Notes under the pieces: model-generated
What the model was told of the DNA's origin: nothing
Databases searched by the model: none
Seen by the model: only the letters and a program-made list of their open reading frames with translations
Assembly: GCA_947448525.1 (NCBI GenBank)
Contig: CANFNV010000002.1
Coordinates: forward strand, 1-64,000
Length of the DNA: 64,000 nt
Direction of reading: 5' to 3'
From: Flavobacteriaceae bacterium
GTDB taxonomy: Bacteria > Bacteroidota > Bacteroidia > Flavobacteriales > Flavobacteriaceae
In this document: piece by piece, positions 39,423 through 54,585 of the stretch
How the letters are laid out: each line of letters begins with the position of its first letter
How positions within the stretch are numbered: position 1 is the first letter of the stretch
Position numbers and translations under genes: made by a program

Positions 39423-40115
39423 TTATTGTGTCATCGCCATACAGACAATACTAACTTTTGCACCAGGAATTTTCAACAATTCTCTACTACAAGCTTCCAA
39501 TGTGGATCCGGTTGTAATTACATCATCAATCAATAAAAAATGCTTGTTGTAATGTCTTTCATCAAATTGAACTCCAAATATACTTTCTACAATTTCACTT
39601 CTGCCTAAAAATGATTTTTTAGTTTGGGTTTTAGAGTAAATATTCCGTAACAAGATTGCATCATTATATTTGATGTTTAAATTTTTAGATAATGCTTCTC
39701 CAAAATGGGTAACTTGATTATAGCCTCGTTCTTTTAAACGTTTTTTATGTAAAGGAACCGGAATGATATAATCTACATCCGTAATTTCTTTAGTAGATTT
39801 CAATTCTGCAGCATACCAATTTCCAATAGCTTCTCCAACTTCTTGATGCCCTTTGTATTTCAACTTATGAATCATTTCTTGAACAATGCCTTTTTTATTA
39901 AAATAAAACAATGCTGAAGCAAATTCGAGATCAATTCGACCATAAAATTTACTAAATGCATCGTTGTTTTTAATTTTGTGATGATTTGTAAGCGGAATTT
40001 CATGTCGGCAACGGGTGCAAATTACCTTTTCATCGGATAATAAAAAAGAATTGCAGCCTGCGCAGGCTTTAGGAAAAAATAGATTCAGCACACTTTCAAG
40101 CATTGATAAAAACAT
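39423..40115 (-). CDS. ComF-family phosphoribosyltransferase-like protein
   Basis: N-terminal zinc-finger CAGCNSFLLSDEKVICTRCRHEIP; PRTase LLIDDVITTGSTLEACSRELL; LKERGYNQVTHFGEALS. Confidence 0.92.
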   Translation of the reverse strand: MFLSMLESVLNLFFPKACAGCNSFLLSDEKVICTRCRHEIPLTNHHKIKNNDAFSKFYGRIDLEFASALFYFNKKGIVQEMIHKLKYKGHQEVGEAIGNWYAAELKSTKEITDVDYIIPVPLHKKRLKERGYNQVTHFGEALSKNLNIKYNDAILLRNIYSKTQTKKSFLGRSEIVESIFGVQFDERHYNKHFLLIDDVITTGSTLEACSRELLKIPGAKVSIVCMAMTQ

Positions 40116-44082: not shown

Positions 44083-45189
44083 TTATTTGATTTCCTTAAT
44101 GAGATAAATATAAGCAGGGAAGTGATCGCTAAATCCGACTTCGTTTATGGAGTGTCGTAAAGGATACCCTTTGTATTGACCTGTGGTTTGAATCATAAAA
44201 GGTTTGTTCCAAATTCCGGCTTTCCAATATCGGTAAGAAGAATAATCAGTTCTTGTAAATGGTTCTGACACCATAATTTGGTCAAAAATATCTCCAGCAT
44301 CTCTATAAAAAAGTGTGGCATTTCCGTCTTTTGCCATTTGCTCAAATGGGTTGTAAATATCACCAGATGCTTTTAATTCTGATTTTTTAAGCTTAGCTCC
44401 AAGTTGAACTTTTACGCTTCTATTATAAGAACCATCGTTTAAATCTCCCATCGTAATGATTTTTGCGTTGGGATTGATTTTAATTAAAGAATCAATTATT
44501 TTTCTATTTAAAGCACCCGCAGCTTCTCGAAAGGGAGAACTTTTCTTTTCTCCGCCAGAACGTGATGGCCAGTGATTTACAATAATATTGATTTCATCAC
44601 CATCAAGAAATCCGGTTACTAAAAGTTGGTCACGAGTAAAAACTCTTTCAGAAGAATTATCAAGTTCAACTTTGTCATCTGTTGCTTCTTCTTCTTCCTT
44701 CTTTTTGACTTTAGCTTCTTGTTTTTTGTAAATTATCAAAGGAATATTTACATAACTTGTGGGTTTAAAGTGTTTTTTCTGATAGAGCAACGCAACATCA
44801 ATTCCTCTTTTGTCGGGAGAATCGAAATGCACAATACCGTAATCGCTGTTGATTAATTTGGGTTGTTTGATTAAATCTTCTAGAACGCCTCTATTTTCAA
44901 TTTCAGCACCACCAATGAACGTTGGTGAATTAGCATTTTCACCAGTTCCAATCTGAGATAATACAATAGATAAGTTTTCTAATTTTTGATGGTATTTTTT
45001 GGAAGTCCAGTTTTGAACACCACTTGGCAACCATTCTTCATCAATAGTATTTGGGTCGTTTATTGTGTCAAATAAATTTTCGAAATTATAGAAGGCAACA
45101 GTATGCACAATGTATTTTTTAGCTTGTGCATTTGCGCTTAATACTGCGAATAAAACAATAAAAAGGGTCATTAGATTTTTAATTTTCAT
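44083..45189 (-). CDS. Secreted endonuclease/exonuclease/phosphatase (EEP) family protein
   Basis: Signal peptide; VAFYNFENLFDT, FIGGAEIENRGVLEDLI, DKRGIDVALLY, VNHWPSRSGGEKKSSPFR, ITMGDLNDGS, FSDHFPAYIYL. Confidence 0.93.
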   Translation of the reverse strand: MKIKNLMTLFIVLFAVLSANAQAKKYIVHTVAFYNFENLFDTINDPNTIDEEWLPSGVQNWTSKKYHQKLENLSIVLSQIGTGENANSPTFIGGAEIENRGVLEDLIKQPKLINSDYGIVHFDSPDKRGIDVALLYQKKHFKPTSYVNIPLIIYKKQEAKVKKKEEEEATDDKVELDNSSERVFTRDQLLVTGFLDGDEINIIVNHWPSRSGGEKKSSPFREAAGALNRKIIDSLIKINPNAKIITMGDLNDGSYNRSVKVQLGAKLKKSELKASGDIYNPFEQMAKDGNATLFYRDAGDIFDQIMVSEPFTRTDYSSYRYWKAGIWNKPFMIQTTGQYKGYPLRHSINEVGFSDHFPAYIYLIKEIK

Positions 45190-45329
45190 AAATCGTATAT
45201 TAATTTAATGTCAAGTTTTTACAAACTTTGAGCCAAAAGTAGTAATATTATTAAAATAATGTACCTTTGCGGGCTGTTAAGTTTGTATTAAGACTTCAGT
45301 TATAAGAAAAATTTAATTTAATTCAATTT

Positions 45330-48176
45330 ATGAAAAAGCTTGTCATTAGTATGTTATTTGTGATGCAAGTGTGTTTTGTTTTTGCACAATCGGGAACAGG
45401 ATTCTCGGGTAAGGTGTTAGATTCAAAAACGCAAAAACCATTGCAAGGTGTTGTTGTCTCTGTTCAAAACATGAGTCTAACTGAAATCACAGACTCTCAA
45501 GGAAAATTTACATTTAAAAGTGTTTCTGAAGGAAATCAATTAGTATCCGTGAAAAGTTCAGGTTATAAAGAACTGTTACTTTCGGTAGATGTAGTAAAAG
45601 GGATGACTTTAGATATAGGAACTATTATATTAGACGAAGACCTTACTCAAGAAGAGCAAAGTACTTTAATAAATATCTCCGACAATGAATTAGAAGACGA
45701 CAATAATGGTTCTGAAAGTACTTCCAGTTTATTGCAAGCTTCTCGCGATGCTTTTAACCAAGCAGTAGCTTTCAATTGGGGATCATCTCATTTTAGATTA
45801 CGTGGTTTAGACAGTGAATACGGAACCACAATGATTAACGGCATCATAATGAACAAAGTTTATGATGGAAGACCGCAATACAGTAACTGGGGTGGATTGT
45901 CAGACGCTACAAGAAATCAAGAATTTACGACTGGCTTAACTCCTTCTGATTATACTTTTGGTGGAATTGTTGGAACTAATGAAATCAATACTAGAGCTTC
46001 TTTATACAGAACTGGAAACAGAATTTCTATGGCAGGAACCAACTCTAATTACAACGGAAGAGTGATGGGAACCACTTCATCTGGAATGAGAAAAGATGGT
46101 TGGGCATATACTATTTCTGCTTCAAGACGATTTGGAGATAACAATTATTTTGAAGGAACAAGTATGTCAGCCAATTCATTTTTTGCCAGTGTTGAGAAAA
46201 AAATAACTTCAAATAACTCCTTGAATTTTACAACTATTTATGATAAGGATACTAAAGGAAAAACCGCACCCAATACACAAGAAGTTATAGACTTAAAAGG
46301 AAGCCAATACAATTCTTATTGGGGCTATTTTGAAGGTAAAAAAAGAAATTCTAGAGTAAAAACAGTAGAAGAACCAATCTTTATTTTAAGTGATTATTGG
46401 AAAATTACTCCAAAAACAAACTTAAATACTAACGTTTCTTACCAAATTGGAAAAGTTGGTAACTCCAGATTAACTTATCAAGGAGTAACTAATCCAGATC
46501 CTACCTATTATCACAATATGCCAAGTTATGAAATTGCATTGTATGATGCAGCTGGTAACTGGACTCCAGACTTTACTCAAGCTGAAGCTAATAAACTAGC
46601 ATTTTTAGCAGACGGTCAACTTAATTGGCAAAATTTAATAAACGCTAATCAGCCCAATGGGAAAAGCGTTTATACTCTGTATGAAGACCGAACAGACGAT
46701 AAAACATTTACCGCCAATACTATTTTAAATTCGCAATTGTCTGATAAAATTTCGTTTAATGCGGGAGCTACATACAGAAATTTGAAGTCACATAATTTCC
46801 AAAATATGTTAGATTTATTGGGAGGAAGTTATTATGTAGATAAAACTTTATATGGAACTAGTCCAGATCAACAACAACAGGATTTGAATAATCCAAATAG
46901 ACATATTGAAGTTGGTGATGCCTTTGGATACAACTATAATTTGACATCAAATAATATTGATGCTTTTACTCAATTTAAATTTGTTTATAAAAAATTCGAT
47001 TTCTTTATGACTCAATCTTTCTCTCGTTCGGATTATCAAAGAGAAGGGTTTTATAAGAATGGTTATTATCCAACAAACTCTTACGGTAAAAGTGATAAAT
47101 ACACTTTTGACAATTTTGGATTTAAAGGCGGGTTGACTTATAAAATATCAGGAAGACAATTTATTACTATCAACGGAGCTTACATGTCTAAAGCTCCAGG
47201 AATGAAAAATTTATTTAACAATGCACGTATTAACAACAATACAGTTGATGGAATTCAAAGCGAAATTATTTCAAGTGCCGATGTAAGTTACATTATGAAT
47301 GCACCTAAGTTAAAAACACGATTAACCGCTTACTATTCTAAAATACAACACCAATCAGAAACAACTTATTTCTATTCTGATGCTATTGGAAGTGCTTCAG
47401 CTGCAAGTACAGCAAATACAACTGCTAGTACAGGAGGTTTGTTTGTGGCAGAAACGTTAAATGGAGTTGACAAACGAAATATTGGGTTAGAATTTGGAGC
47501 CGAATATCCTATAACCTCTACGTTAAAAGCAACACTAAGCGCAGCCTATGGGGAATATATTTACACCAGTAATCCGGATGTATTTGTAAATGTAGATGCC
47601 AATGCCAATGCAACCAATACAAAACCAATTTTAGATTATGGTAATGCTAATATTAAAAACTACAGACAAGCAGGAACGCCTCAACAAGCTGCTTCTGTTG
47701 GATTAGAATACAGAGACCCAAAATTTTGGTGGGTGGGAACTAATGTGAATTACATTGGTGGAAACTATGTTGATATTGCTCAAATTACAAGAACTAATCA
47801 TTTTTATGACGATAGTAATTTTTCTCCTGGAGTTCCTTCTTCAGATGCCAATACAATAAGAGGGGAACAATTGTTACAACAAGAGAAAATGAGTGACTAT
47901 ATGTTAGTCAACTTAATAGGAGGTAAATCTTGGAAAATTAAAAACTCTACTATTGGTTTTACTGCCAACATCAATAACTTGCTAGATACTAAATATAAAT
48001 CTGGAGGTTATGAGCAAGCAAGAAATGGAAATTATACTCAGGTTAACCAAGATTATACTCCTCACGTAAATCCCAATAATCCTGCTGCAGGGGCTGTTGC
48101 AACTCCGGTATTTGGAACAAAATATTTTTATGGATACGGTAGAACTTTTCTTGTAAATTTATATATTAATTTTTAA
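45330..48176 (+). CDS. TonB-dependent receptor with carboxypeptidase-regulatory-like N-terminus
   Basis: FSGKVLDSKTQKPLQGVVVSVQNMSLTEITDSQGKFTF; plug and beta-barrel; C-terminal YGYGRTFLVNLYINF. Confidence 0.93.
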   Translation: MKKLVISMLFVMQVCFVFAQSGTGFSGKVLDSKTQKPLQGVVVSVQNMSLTEITDSQGKFTFKSVSEGNQLVSVKSSGYKELLLSVDVVKGMTLDIGTIILDEDLTQEEQSTLINISDNELEDDNNGSESTSSLLQASRDAFNQAVAFNWGSSHFRLRGLDSEYGTTMINGIIMNKVYDGRPQYSNWGGLSDATRNQEFTTGLTPSDYTFGGIVGTNEINTRASLYRTGNRISMAGTNSNYNGRVMGTTSSGMRKDGWAYTISASRRFGDNNYFEGTSMSANSFFASVEKKITSNNSLNFTTIYDKDTKGKTAPNTQEVIDLKGSQYNSYWGYFEGKKRNSRVKTVEEPIFILSDYWKITPKTNLNTNVSYQIGKVGNSRLTYQGVTNPDPTYYHNMPSYEIALYDAAGNWTPDFTQAEANKLAFLADGQLNWQNLINANQPNGKSVYTLYEDRTDDKTFTANTILNSQLSDKISFNAGATYRNLKSHNFQNMLDLLGGSYYVDKTLYGTSPDQQQQDLNNPNRHIEVGDAFGYNYNLTSNNIDAFTQFKFVYKKFDFFMTQSFSRSDYQREGFYKNGYYPTNSYGKSDKYTFDNFGFKGGLTYKISGRQFITINGAYMSKAPGMKNLFNNARINNNTVDGIQSEIISSADVSYIMNAPKLKTRLTAYYSKIQHQSETTYFYSDAIGSASAASTANTTASTGGLFVAETLNGVDKRNIGLEFGAEYPITSTLKATLSAAYGEYIYTSNPDVFVNVDANANATNTKPILDYGNANIKNYRQAGTPQQAASVGLEYRDPKFWWVGTNVNYIGGNYVDIAQITRTNHFYDDSNFSPGVPSSDANTIRGEQLLQQEKMSDYMLVNLIGGKSWKIKNSTIGFTANINNLLDTKYKSGGYEQARNGNYTQVNQDYTPHVNPNNPAAGAVATPVFGTKYFYGYGRTFLVNLYINF

Positions 48177-48187
48177 GTAATAAAAAT

Positions 48188-48826
48188 ATGAAAACAGTAC
48201 AAATAAAAACATTAATTTTTACAACACTGATAGCATTGGTTTTATCAAGTTGTACCAAAAGCAGTGATATTGCTTACCCAACATTAAAAAAAGTTTATTT
48301 CTCTGAAACCTTTGATTATAACACTACTGATGCATCACCGAATGCATTACCATCTGGCTGGACATCTTATGCAGAAATAGGCGCCAAACTTTGGTCAAAA
48401 TCTGTATACCCACCTCCAGCTTTTCCAGTTACTAAAGGTGATGGATATGCAACTTTTTCAGCTTATGGAAGTGGTGATGGTGCAAACGTAAGCTGGTTAA
48501 TTTCTCCATCTATTGATGTAGATCAACACGAAGGAGAAAGCTTGTCTTTTCAAACTTGTCATGATAGTTATGTTAAAAATACAAGCAACAGTCTTGAGGT
48601 ATATATCTCTAAAGACTATACTGGAAATTTTGGTACTGCTCATTGGACTAAAATAAATTATATAGGAACTTTGGTTTGGCCTTATACAAAAGCTTATAAA
48701 TATGTGAATTCAGGTGCTATTGATTTATCCTTGTACAAAGGAACTATCAATTTTGCTTTTAAATATACTGGAATAAATCCATCTACAGGGGCGTATCAAG
48801 TAGACAATGTTGCAATTGTATATTAA
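48188..48826 (+). CDS. Lipoprotein, choice-of-anchor-J-like domain
   Basis: Lipobox LALVLSSCTKSS; YFSETFDYNTTDASPNALPSGWTSY...NVSWLISPSIDVDQHEGESLSFQT...AYQVDNVAIVY. Confidence 0.8.
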   Translation: MKTVQIKTLIFTTLIALVLSSCTKSSDIAYPTLKKVYFSETFDYNTTDASPNALPSGWTSYAEIGAKLWSKSVYPPPAFPVTKGDGYATFSAYGSGDGANVSWLISPSIDVDQHEGESLSFQTCHDSYVKNTSNSLEVYISKDYTGNFGTAHWTKINYIGTLVWPYTKAYKYVNSGAIDLSLYKGTINFAFKYTGINPSTGAYQVDNVAIVY

Positions 48827-48844
48827 TCTTTAATATTAAAAAAT

Positions 48845-50191
48845 ATGAAAACAAACCTATTAAAAATAGTAACAGTAGTTGCTTTTGTCAGCTTATTGGT
48901 AAGCTGTTCGGTTACAGATAAAAATGTTTGGAATGAGGTAAAAGAAATTAAAACGTATGAATTATCACCTACAATGTCGGTTGCAGATCTTCAAACAGCT
49001 GTTGGTTCAAATAACCCAACTGTTTTATATCCTGTTTCAACTCCAACCACTCCAGTTGCTGATGTAATAATTGAAGCTTATGTAACTTCAAATGATACGG
49101 ATGGAAATTTTTACAAATCTATTTCGTTTCAAAATTTACTAAATACCGCAACAACTCCGATAATTGGATTTAGTGTTTCGGTTAATAAACCGATGTTATT
49201 TGCAGATGGATTTACACCAGGTAGAAAAGTGTATATTAAACTAAATGGATTGGCTATTGGTAAAGTTTTTGGCTCAATTCAAATTGGAGTTGCCGACTCA
49301 ACTACTTCTTCAGGTATTGCAGGTATTGAACCAACAGATTATTTGGATTATCTTTTCCCTTCAAGCACTGTTGTTAATGAAGAATCTTTAGTAAGACACA
49401 TGAATTTAACTAATGCTGTTTTAGATTCAAATCAAAACACATTAATTGAAGTTGACAATGTTCAATTTGCATCAAGTTCATTGGGAAGAACTTTGTTTGA
49501 TGTAGATAATGGCGGTTATGCTACTAATCATAACATTATTGATGCAGAAAATGGGGGAAAACCTAGGATAATTAGATTTAGCCAATATGCAACATTTTCT
49601 TTAGTTAATGTTCCTTCTGGAAGAGGTGGGATTCGTGGAGTAATGACCAAATATAACACAGACTACCAATTTACCATTCGTCAAGAAAGTGATTTAAAAC
49701 TAACTAATCCAAGACAGTTCATGGATGATTTTGCAACAGGAATTGGTGCTTGGACTTCATATAGCGTAACTGGAAATGAAATTTGGACACCAAGTTCTTA
49801 TGGAAATCCATCCTATTGCGCTACTATTACTGGATATGCTGGTGGAAATAAAAATAATGAAGATTGGTTAATCTCTCCAAGTATCAATTTTACCAACAAA
49901 ACTATTGGAAAATTAATTTTTGATAGCGCAACTAAATATACTGGTAATAGTCTTCAGGCCTATATTTCTACAAATTACACAAGTGGGGCACCTTCAAATG
50001 CTACTTGGACGTTGTTGCCTGCTTCATTTGCGCCAGTAAACAGTAACTATACTTGGACAAATTCAGGGTCAATTAATATTTCTTCTTATGCTTCCAATCA
50101 AGGAAATGTAAGAATTGCATTCAAATATACTTCTACAACATCTGCTGCCGCTACATGGGAGCTAGACAATGTTTTAGTTACGGCTAATTAA
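48845..50191 (+). CDS. DUF5689-like lipoprotein with C-terminal choice-of-anchor-J-like domain
   Basis: Lipobox SLLVSCSVTD; PVADVIIEAYVTSNDTDGNFYKSISFQN (OB-like); C-terminal FMDDFATGIGAWTSYSVTGNEIWTPSSYG...EDWLISPSINF...TWELDNVLV. Confidence 0.82.
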   Translation: MKTNLLKIVTVVAFVSLLVSCSVTDKNVWNEVKEIKTYELSPTMSVADLQTAVGSNNPTVLYPVSTPTTPVADVIIEAYVTSNDTDGNFYKSISFQNLLNTATTPIIGFSVSVNKPMLFADGFTPGRKVYIKLNGLAIGKVFGSIQIGVADSTTSSGIAGIEPTDYLDYLFPSSTVVNEESLVRHMNLTNAVLDSNQNTLIEVDNVQFASSSLGRTLFDVDNGGYATNHNIIDAENGGKPRIIRFSQYATFSLVNVPSGRGGIRGVMTKYNTDYQFTIRQESDLKLTNPRQFMDDFATGIGAWTSYSVTGNEIWTPSSYGNPSYCATITGYAGGNKNNEDWLISPSINFTNKTIGKLIFDSATKYTGNSLQAYISTNYTSGAPSNATWTLLPASFAPVNSNYTWTNSGSINISSYASNQGNVRIAFKYTSTTSAAATWELDNVLVTAN

Positions 50192-50212
50192 TAGGTTTAC
50201 CAAATTATATTG

Positions 50213-50247
50213 AACCCTCGTTTCTTCATTGAAACGGGGGTTTTTTT
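50213..50247 (+). terminator. Rho-independent terminator after the TonB/DUF5689 operon
   Basis: AACCCTCGTTTC-TTCATT-GAAACGGGGGTT followed by T run. Confidence 0.9.
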
Positions 50248-52428: not shown

Positions 52429-53400
52429 ATGGCAAAAATACTTACAGGCGTTCAAAGTACAGGCACACCTCATTTGGGAAACTTATTGGGTGCCATTATT
52501 CCTGCTATTGAATTATCTAACAATCCTGCAAATCAATCGTTTTTATTTATTGCCGATTTGCATTCCATCACGCAAATAAAAGACGGAACAACTTTAAGAG
52601 CGAATACTTATAGTACGGCAGCCGCTTGGTTGGCTTGTGGTTTAGATTGTAACAAAGTGACGTTTTACCGTCAAAGTGACGTACCTCAAACTGCCGAATT
52701 ATCGTGGTATTTAAGCTGCTTTTTTCCGTTTCAAAGATTAACATTAGCCCATTCTTTTAAAGATAAAGCAGACAGATTAGAAGATGTAAACGCTGGATTA
52801 TTTTCTTATCCAATGCTTATGGCAGCAGATATTTTATTGTATGATGCCAATTTTGTGCCGGTTGGAAAAGACCAAATGCAACACATTGAAATTACCCGTG
52901 ATGTGGCTTCACGTTTCAATCATCAAATGGGAGAAACCTTTATAATTCCTGAAGGTACTATTCAAAAAGAAACGATGTACGTGCCGGGAACTGACGGAAA
53001 TAAAATGAGCAAATCGCGTGGAAATATTATTGATATTTTCATTGATGATAAAGCGCTTCGCAAACAAATTATGGGCATTGAAAGTGACAGTACGCCACTT
53101 GAAGATCCTAAAAATCCTGATACCTGTAACATTTTTGCTCTTTATAAATTAATTGCTAATGAAGAACAAATTTCCAAAATGAGACAGCAATATTTGGGTG
53201 GAAATTATGGTTATGGGCATGCTAAACAAGCTCTTTTTGAATTGATTTGTGAAAAATTCAAAACAGAAAGAGAAAAATACAATTACTATATGAACAATCT
53301 TATCGAAATGGATGCTTTGTTACAAAAAGGAGCCAAAAAAGCTCATTTAGTTGCTAATGACGTTTTAAAAAGAGTACGCGTGAAACTTGGGTTTAATTAA
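52429..53400 (+). CDS. trpS: Tryptophan--tRNA ligase
   Basis: ILTGVQSTGTPHLGNLLGAIIPAIEL...GTDGNKMSKSRGNIIDIF. Confidence 0.97.
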   Translation: MAKILTGVQSTGTPHLGNLLGAIIPAIELSNNPANQSFLFIADLHSITQIKDGTTLRANTYSTAAAWLACGLDCNKVTFYRQSDVPQTAELSWYLSCFFPFQRLTLAHSFKDKADRLEDVNAGLFSYPMLMAADILLYDANFVPVGKDQMQHIEITRDVASRFNHQMGETFIIPEGTIQKETMYVPGTDGNKMSKSRGNIIDIFIDDKALRKQIMGIESDSTPLEDPKNPDTCNIFALYKLIANEEQISKMRQQYLGGNYGYGHAKQALFELICEKFKTEREKYNYYMNNLIEMDALLQKGAKKAHLVANDVLKRVRVKLGFN

Positions 53401-54500
53401 ATTGATTCAAATAATTTTCCGGGCAAAGGTCGTATTACGCCTTTTAATTCCATATTCACTAAAAAAGAGGATGTTCTAAAAACAGGAAAACCGCATTCTA
53501 AAGCAATAGTGTCCAATTCTTGTTTTCCTTGTTGTTGCAAATAATTGTATATTTTTTGTTCTTCATTATCTAATGATACAAAAAGCTTCTTTTGAATGAC
53601 TTGGTGGTCGTTTTGTTCGAATTCCCAATTGAGAATGTAAATCAAATCGACAGCAGAAGTTAACAAATTGGCGCGTTGGGTTTTAATTAAATTATTACAT
53701 CCTTGACTAAATTTGTCTGAAATTCTTCCTGGGACAGCAAATACATCTCGATTGTAATCGTTGGCTAAATTGGCCGTAATTAAAGAACCCCCTTTTTCAG
53801 CACTTTCAATTACAATTGTGGCTTCACTCATTCCAGCAACGATTCGATTTCGTTTTACAAAATTCTCTTTTTCTGGATTAGAGGTGCTCCAGAATTCGGT
53901 TAGAAATCCGCCGTTTTCTTCCATTTTAGCAACATACTTTTTATGAACTTTTGGATACACCTGATTCAAACCATGAGCAATAACGCCAATCGTTTGTAAA
54001 TTATAATCCATTGCTGTTTTATGAGCAACAATATCTACTCCATAAGCAAATCCGCTAACAATTATTGGGTTAAAAAGTGCTAAATCTTCAATTAGTTTTT
54101 TGCAAAATTCACTTCCGTAAGAAGTAATTTCACGAGTTCCAACAATGCTAATGATTTTACGATTATTAAAATTCACGTTCCCTGAGGCAAACATCAAAAC
54201 GGGAGCATCAATGCAATGCTTTAATCGATTTGGATAATTTTCATCTTGATAATACAACAAATTAATAGTGTTGTCTTTAATAAATTTGAGTTCGGATTCT
54301 GCTAATTTAAAAACCGATTTGTCTTTAAGCTTTTTTATCAATACTTGGCCTATCCCATCAATTGCAGACAAAAAGGATGGTTTCGTTTGGAAGATTTTCT
54401 CAGCGCTTCCACAATGATTTAATAATTTTTTGGCAACAATGTCGCCTACTCCCTCAATTTTTAAAAGGGCTAACAAGTGAAGTAATTCGGTATCGTTCAT
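53397..54500 (-). CDS. dprA: DNA-processing protein DprA
   Basis: ISIVGTREITSYGSEFCKKLIEDL...IVSGFAYGVDIVAHKTAMD...TIGVIAHGLNQVYPKVHKK...FVKRNRIVAGMSEATIVIESAEKGGSLITANLANDYNRDVFAVPG; start moved to MNDTELL. Confidence 0.96.
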   Translation of the reverse strand: MNDTELLHLLALLKIEGVGDIVAKKLLNHCGSAEKIFQTKPSFLSAIDGIGQVLIKKLKDKSVFKLAESELKFIKDNTINLLYYQDENYPNRLKHCIDAPVLMFASGNVNFNNRKIISIVGTREITSYGSEFCKKLIEDLALFNPIIVSGFAYGVDIVAHKTAMDYNLQTIGVIAHGLNQVYPKVHKKYVAKMEENGGFLTEFWSTSNPEKENFVKRNRIVAGMSEATIVIESAEKGGSLITANLANDYNRDVFAVPGRISDKFSQGCNNLIKTQRANLLTSAVDLIYILNWEFEQNDHQVIQKKLFVSLDNEEQKIYNYLQQQGKQELDTIALECGFPVFRTSSFLVNMELKGVIRPLPGKLFESI

Positions 54501-54585
54501 TAAATGTAAGTCTGTATGGTGTATAAAATAGAACCTCAAAAGTAAGGAGAATTAAAATTGTTAACAAAGTTTATAGAAAAAAATT

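Follow-up and report, generated by a model that had tools for sequence, protein, structure and literature searches.

Does a divergent gene set that pairs a predicted nuclease with a TonB-receptor-like barrel and two lipoproteins bring DNA into the cell and, if so, for what purpose? The question is raised by a locus in a 64,000-nucleotide stretch of Flavobacteriaceae DNA, here called the window. An earlier note on this DNA had read the locus as a possible system that captures, cuts and imports DNA, perhaps as a source of phosphate. How DNA is taken up for transformation is largely open in Bacteroidota, and the comparison described here adds a candidate for the protein that makes single strands.

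Gene products and surroundings of the locus

All four open reading frames were confirmed at the coordinates given in the earlier note (Table 1). The gene for the EEP-family enzyme is divergent from a plus-strand run of three genes (45330-50191) that encodes the barrel, the anchor-J-like lipoprotein and the DUF5689 lipoprotein, with 140 bp between them. The EEP protein matches its Pfam family strongly (E 6e-104, 348 bits against a cut-off of 27). The DUF5689 protein also scores over its cut-off (E 2e-46), which no second DUF5689 gene in the window genome does, and has a DUF5017-like C-terminal part; it is not over the curated cut-off of the M949_1556 family lipoprotein (NF052645; 240 versus 475 bits). 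The barrel protein had earlier been named a TonB-dependent receptor. A Pfam scan found a carboxypeptidase-regulatory domain (E 7e-13), and a low-confidence model (pLDDT 51), too poor for statements on the pore, matches TonB transporters (Foldseek E 1e-14), but the Plug match is sub-threshold (E 0.057, 14.4 bits against a cut-off of 23.9). The same scan of the operon found no member of the SusD family, in agreement with the earlier note. Queried against PDB sequences, neither the three proteins (EEP, DUF5689, barrel) nor their profiles gave an informative relative, and a search of a viral structure library returned mainly phage tail and uncharacterised proteins. Purifying selection acts on the genes of the locus, with dN/dS at 0.06-0.32 and dS saturated.

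Table 1. Features of the locus and its flanks in the window.
Feature	Coordinates	Strand	Remarks
ComF-like gene near locus	39423..40115	-	weak DZR_2 and phosphoribosyltransferase matches
EEP-family enzyme gene	44083..45189	-	PF19580; relative of RA0C_RS04910
-7 type promoter box, EEP gene	45234..45241	-	place kept in 9/10 relatives
-7 type promoter box, receptor operon	45262..45269	+	place kept in 10/10 relatives
TonB-receptor-like barrel gene	45330..48176	+	N-terminal carboxypeptidase-regulatory domain; relative of RA0C_RS04915
Choice-of-anchor-J / DUF5017-like lipoprotein gene	48188..48826	+	profile match E 3e-20
DUF5689 lipoprotein gene	48845..50191	+	PF18942; relative of RA0C_RS04920
Intrinsic terminator closing operon	50212..50243	+	13-bp stem and T run
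dprA near locus	53397..54539	-	PF02481 E 1e-76

Two competence genes flank the locus, one on each side: the ComF-like gene about 4 kb and dprA about 3 kb outside it. The ComF-like protein is 36% identical to a protein encoded in the comF region of Riemerella anatipestifer. In addition to these dprA and comF-like genes, the window genome has comEC in two frames, with an apparent frameshift just after the channel domain that divides it into 481 and 192 amino acids (genome G000, contig C6, L098 789-2821). The split may reflect an assembly error or lost competence.

Inspection of the divergent region found both TAnnTTTG boxes at the positions reported before and, by eye, no canonical -33 TTG for either; the strong terminator described after the operon is likewise present. 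Such boxes are common per se (123 in the window versus 109 expected). Among ten loci compared, a plus-strand box lies 34-60 nt upstream of the receptor ATG in every one, and a minus-strand box lies upstream of the EEP ATG in nine. We rejected the palindrome AAGTTT-N4/5-AAACTT as a shared operator, as it is found in close relatives only and shows no genome-wide enrichment (5 sites versus 10 for a reversed control). The window copy, an AAGTTT-N4-AAACTT inverted repeat at 45213-45228, recurs in five close relatives (L003, L005, L008, L009, L013). Some Flavobacterium loci (L019-L021, L048, L051-L058) have the EEP gene apart from the receptor gene and no TAnnTTTG in the 90 nt before the latter.

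Relatives of the module in Riemerella anatipestifer

In R. anatipestifer, a related bacterium of ducks, transposon screening followed by markerless deletions established that natural transformation needs two genes, RA0C_RS04915 and RA0C_RS04920; deleting either abolished transformation, which fell under the limit of detection just as it does in mutants of comEC and recA (PMC8459023). The former encodes a barrel with a carboxypeptidase-regulatory domain and the latter a protein with DUF5689 and DUF5017; in Flavobacterium columnare, a DUF5017 gene stands between the barrel and DUF5689 genes (PMC8459023). This 2021 genetic work left the maker of single strands from duplex DNA unidentified (PMC8459023).

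We located an R. anatipestifer genome by a family-wide search with a primer printed in PMC8383284, which matched G375 exactly. This genome is a single contig of 2,164,087 bases with one member of the barrel family, and its gene order is recA, dinB, sdhB, sdhA, sdhC, comEC, two further genes, EEP, barrel and DUF5689. That order fits the published tags RS04870 (recA), RS04895 (comEC), RS04915 and RS04920, which rise in steps of five, so we take the EEP gene to be RA0C_RS04910. Because a second genome (G390) also contains the primer, the strain name rests on gene order too.

The window barrel aligns with its Riemerella counterpart over the full length (35% identity over 958 columns, 548 bits), as do the EEP protein (34% identity) and the DUF5689 protein, compared with RS04920 (26% identity). 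The window barrel and DUF5689 proteins, relatives of RA0C_RS04915 and RA0C_RS04920, are encoded in the order seen in Riemerella. RA0C_RS04910 itself is mentioned in PMC8459023 only as the upstream gene, whose transcription is unchanged in the receptor mutant. Neither the EEP gene nor the DUF5689 gene, the latter being essential for transformation, was hit in the screen of 3000 insertions (PMC8459023); by our own arithmetic, which assumes uniform insertion, a 1.2-kb gene has a chance of about 19% of escaping 3000 insertions in 2.16 Mb.

Linkage and co-occurrence across Bacteroidia

With the barrel family defined at E <= 1e-60, 44 of 197 Bacteroidia genomes contain a member, and the DUF5689 gene adjoins it in 42 of the 44. 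An EEP gene lies no more than 8 kb from the barrel gene in 34 genomes of this class sample; in 26 it is divergent and at most 2 kb away. The divergent arrangement within 2 kb recurs in 46/61 barrel-containing genomes of an order sample, which shares some genomes with the class sample. One Flavobacterium group has the EEP gene 16-55 kb from the receptor. Unbiased clustering of the neighbouring ORFs yielded three widespread families only, receptor, EEP and DUF5689, found in 15, 14 and 14 GTDB families, respectively; the next clusters span 7 and then 4, and the flanks of the module vary between GTDB families. The set of EEP, receptor and DUF5689 genes, first noted at this single locus, thus recurs across the class.

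Presence of the enzyme also follows the barrel. At a threshold of 170 bits or more, an EEP match occurs in 44/44 barrel-containing and 2/153 barrel-less class genomes, and in 61/61 and 1/97 genomes, respectively, of the order sample, counts that are not independent events since the genomes are related. A maximum-likelihood tree places all 45 EEPs from genomes with the barrel module, linked or unlinked, on one side (support 82/72; 98/92 for a core of 43). On the other side are 17 EEPs of genomes lacking the barrel, together with five second copies and the EEPs of the two class genomes that seemed to be exceptions. These two genomes (G004 and G100), which have an EEP match and no receptor, were rejected as exceptions because the tree groups both with other EEP paralogues. 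Within three families in which only some genomes have the barrel (f20, f28, f33), the EEP orthologue goes with it. Co-occurrence of ComEC and DprA with the module is uninformative, both being near-universal in the class. Together, co-occurrence, linkage and tree are good evidence, drawn from genome comparison, that the EEP is functionally coupled to the receptor module; they bear on the coupling and not on how the enzyme acts.

Several individual loci depart from the common layout. G255 has a matching EEP 8 kb off that may be a paralogue, and in G069 (L102) a receptor gene has two EEP genes nearby, one of them directly upstream and codirectional. In-frame stops or a frameshift disrupt the receptor gene of G315 (L170), and the EEP gene of this genome is intact. 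G270 (L168 8661-9701), a member of the Flavobacteriaceae, contains a module-like, strongly matching EEP with no receptor detected and a comF-like gene 9 kb away. Outside Flavobacteriaceae, a gene of about 450 aa often lies 3' of the DUF5689 gene (L076, L077, L079, L088, L099-L101, L104, L114, L115). The Flavobacteriaceae locus also occurs in two public contigs (L008 and L014) whose titles name Bifidobacterium breve and Rhizobium sp.; both are probably mislabelled metagenome bins.

The DUF5689 lipoprotein and the EEP enzyme

An AlphaFold model of the DUF5689 protein (pLDDT 80) has tandem OB folds and a C-terminal jelly roll, which bears out, as a prediction, the earlier guess of an OB fold. Three chains of Teb1, a telomeric protein with tandem OB folds that binds single-stranded DNA, are among the best PDB matches of the OB part (Foldseek E 1e-6 to 2e-5). 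The TM-score to the Teb1 domain pair is only about 0.33, at 12% identity, so the packing of the domains differs. For the C-terminal part the matches are jelly rolls, gingipain adhesin domains among them, and it resembles carbohydrate-binding modules as well. DUF5689 proteins have conserved aromatic and basic residues. They are lipoproteins, in most of which the cysteine is followed by charged residues (CKKEFD, CVKDD), a pattern resembling the signal by which Bacteroidota lipoproteins are exported to the surface; the window protein has CSVTDKN at this place. The modelling supports an OB fold of a DNA-binding type in the DUF5689 part.

EEP enzymes include nucleases and phosphodiesterases. Residues N35, E98, D131, H206, D249 and N251 of the EEP protein are invariant and D355-H356 nearly so; we take these to correspond to the catalytic sites of DNase I type enzymes. 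The window protein has a Sec-type signal, and we saw neither a lipobox nor a T9SS-type C-terminal extension. Most relatives likewise have a Sec-type signal, stop at the domain's SDH motif and lack a T9SS tail; a few are lipoprotein-like. Given the missing lipobox and tail, a periplasmic location is more likely than the extracellular one implied by the earlier note. The EEP is probably best viewed, from these features, as a candidate periplasmic nuclease.

A model for DNA uptake and its alternatives

We think it likely that the locus serves natural transformation in Bacteroidia as a TonB-type system for DNA uptake at the outer membrane, with an OB-fold lipoprotein at the surface and an EEP nuclease that is probably periplasmic. 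The role in uptake would be inherited from the published genetics of the Riemerella relatives of the barrel and DUF5689 proteins, and we infer that the EEP takes part in it. The DUF5689 lipoprotein, with its anchor-J partner, would stand at the cell surface and grip DNA by its tandem OB folds; the TonB-type barrel would carry the DNA across the outer membrane with the help of TonB; in the periplasm, the EEP would cut or trim the incoming duplex before ComEC; and ComEC would take up one strand, with ComF, DprA and RecA completing transformation.

This model draws on the loss of transformation in the Riemerella deletions, on the full-length homology of the proteins and on the finding that tonB deletions in R. 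anatipestifer lower transformation, one of the two also lowering iron uptake. EEP presence that follows the barrel, the three-family neighbourhood, the one-sided tree and the OB-fold match argue for it as well. Against it we count the absence of the EEP gene from the hits of the Riemerella screen, the apparently frameshifted comEC of the window genome, one study in which F. johnsoniae was not transformed under the conditions tested, the poor barrel model, the barrel-less G270 with its strongly matching EEP, and the fact that one tonB effect may stem from iron shortage. A more specific proposal, put forward tentatively, gives the EEP the part of the entry nuclease so far lacking in a TonB-type DNA importer that also comprises the tandem-OB lipoprotein and the barrel and serves transformation in much of Bacteroidia. 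New here is the coupling of the EEP to the transformation uptake system, which is itself known, if barely described; we found no paper linking an EEP nuclease to it in the open-licence literature, preprints excluded, and later work may exist.

Could the receptor and lipoprotein import DNA and the EEP serve in housekeeping or protection, removing the debris of imported DNA or restraining transformation rather than promoting it? Its gene is divergent and outside the operon, and at a distance in one Flavobacterium group; transcription of RS04910 is the same in the receptor mutant, and the gene is missing from the screen hits. Presence of the orthologue nevertheless tracks the receptor almost perfectly, and we consider such a role unlikely. 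The nutritional purpose, in which DNA is bound, pieces are imported and the EEP frees nucleotides or phosphate as food, with transformation as a by-product, would suit an enzyme family of nucleases and phosphodiesterases, a widespread module and a layout (receptor, surface lipoprotein, periplasmic enzyme) that is usual for Bacteroidota nutrient loci. However, the phenotype demonstrated in a relative is transformation, which phosphate removal lowers in R. anatipestifer, and among the clustered neighbouring ORFs no gene for a phosphatase, nucleotidase or nucleoside transporter repeatedly accompanies the module. Phosphate scavenging, as proposed earlier, is therefore not supported, and we judge nutritional scavenging in general distinctly unlikely, while the idea that the linked set captures, cuts and imports DNA is strengthened by the class-wide linkage, the OB models and the Riemerella genetics.

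The receptor might instead import another ligand needed for competence, such as a glycan, peptide or metal complex, and transformation would then be lost indirectly. The DUF5689 jelly roll resembles carbohydrate-binding and adhesin modules, OB folds can bind oligosaccharides too, and transformation of R. anatipestifer needs iron and peptone. An indirect effect fits poorly with a loss as total as that in comEC and recA mutants, and the constant partner of the receptor is an EEP enzyme, with no SusD or glycoside hydrolase gene recurring in the clustered neighbourhoods; we regard this explanation as highly improbable. On the preferred reading, DNA uptake for transformation, three genes that travel together through about 15 GTDB families predict which Bacteroidia carry the machine.

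Comparison with known systems

Like SusCD glycan uptake systems, the locus combines a TonB-type barrel bearing a carboxypeptidase-regulatory domain with a paired lipoprotein, but the lipoprotein is of the DUF5689/jelly-roll kind, the operon has no SusD match and glycoside hydrolases are not linked to the module. The DUF5689 part is akin to the tandem OB binders of the Teb1/RPA type (Foldseek E 1.3e-6) in fold only. EndA and NucA are entry nucleases that process incoming DNA in Gram-positive transformation; the EEP, which belongs to a different enzyme family, would resemble them solely in this proposed role.

The closest counterpart is RA0C_RS04915-RS04920 of R. anatipestifer (PMC8459023), where a barrel gene is likewise followed by a DUF5689 lipoprotein gene (DUF5689 plus DUF5017 in Riemerella), with the EEP gene divergent. 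Unlike Riemerella, the window has the additional anchor-J lipoprotein between barrel and DUF5689, as in F. columnare, and its locus is near comF and dprA, whereas comEC and recA lie just beyond the EEP gene in Riemerella. As in uptake by type IV pili and ComEA in other Gram-negative bacteria, DNA would be passed to ComEC, DprA and RecA, but the module has no pilus gene and a TonB-type barrel would serve the outer-membrane step, as the genetics of PMC8459023 suggests. If this is correct, the lipoprotein with its tandem OB folds, the TonB barrel and an EEP nuclease in the periplasm would together constitute a distinct kind of outer-membrane DNA importer.
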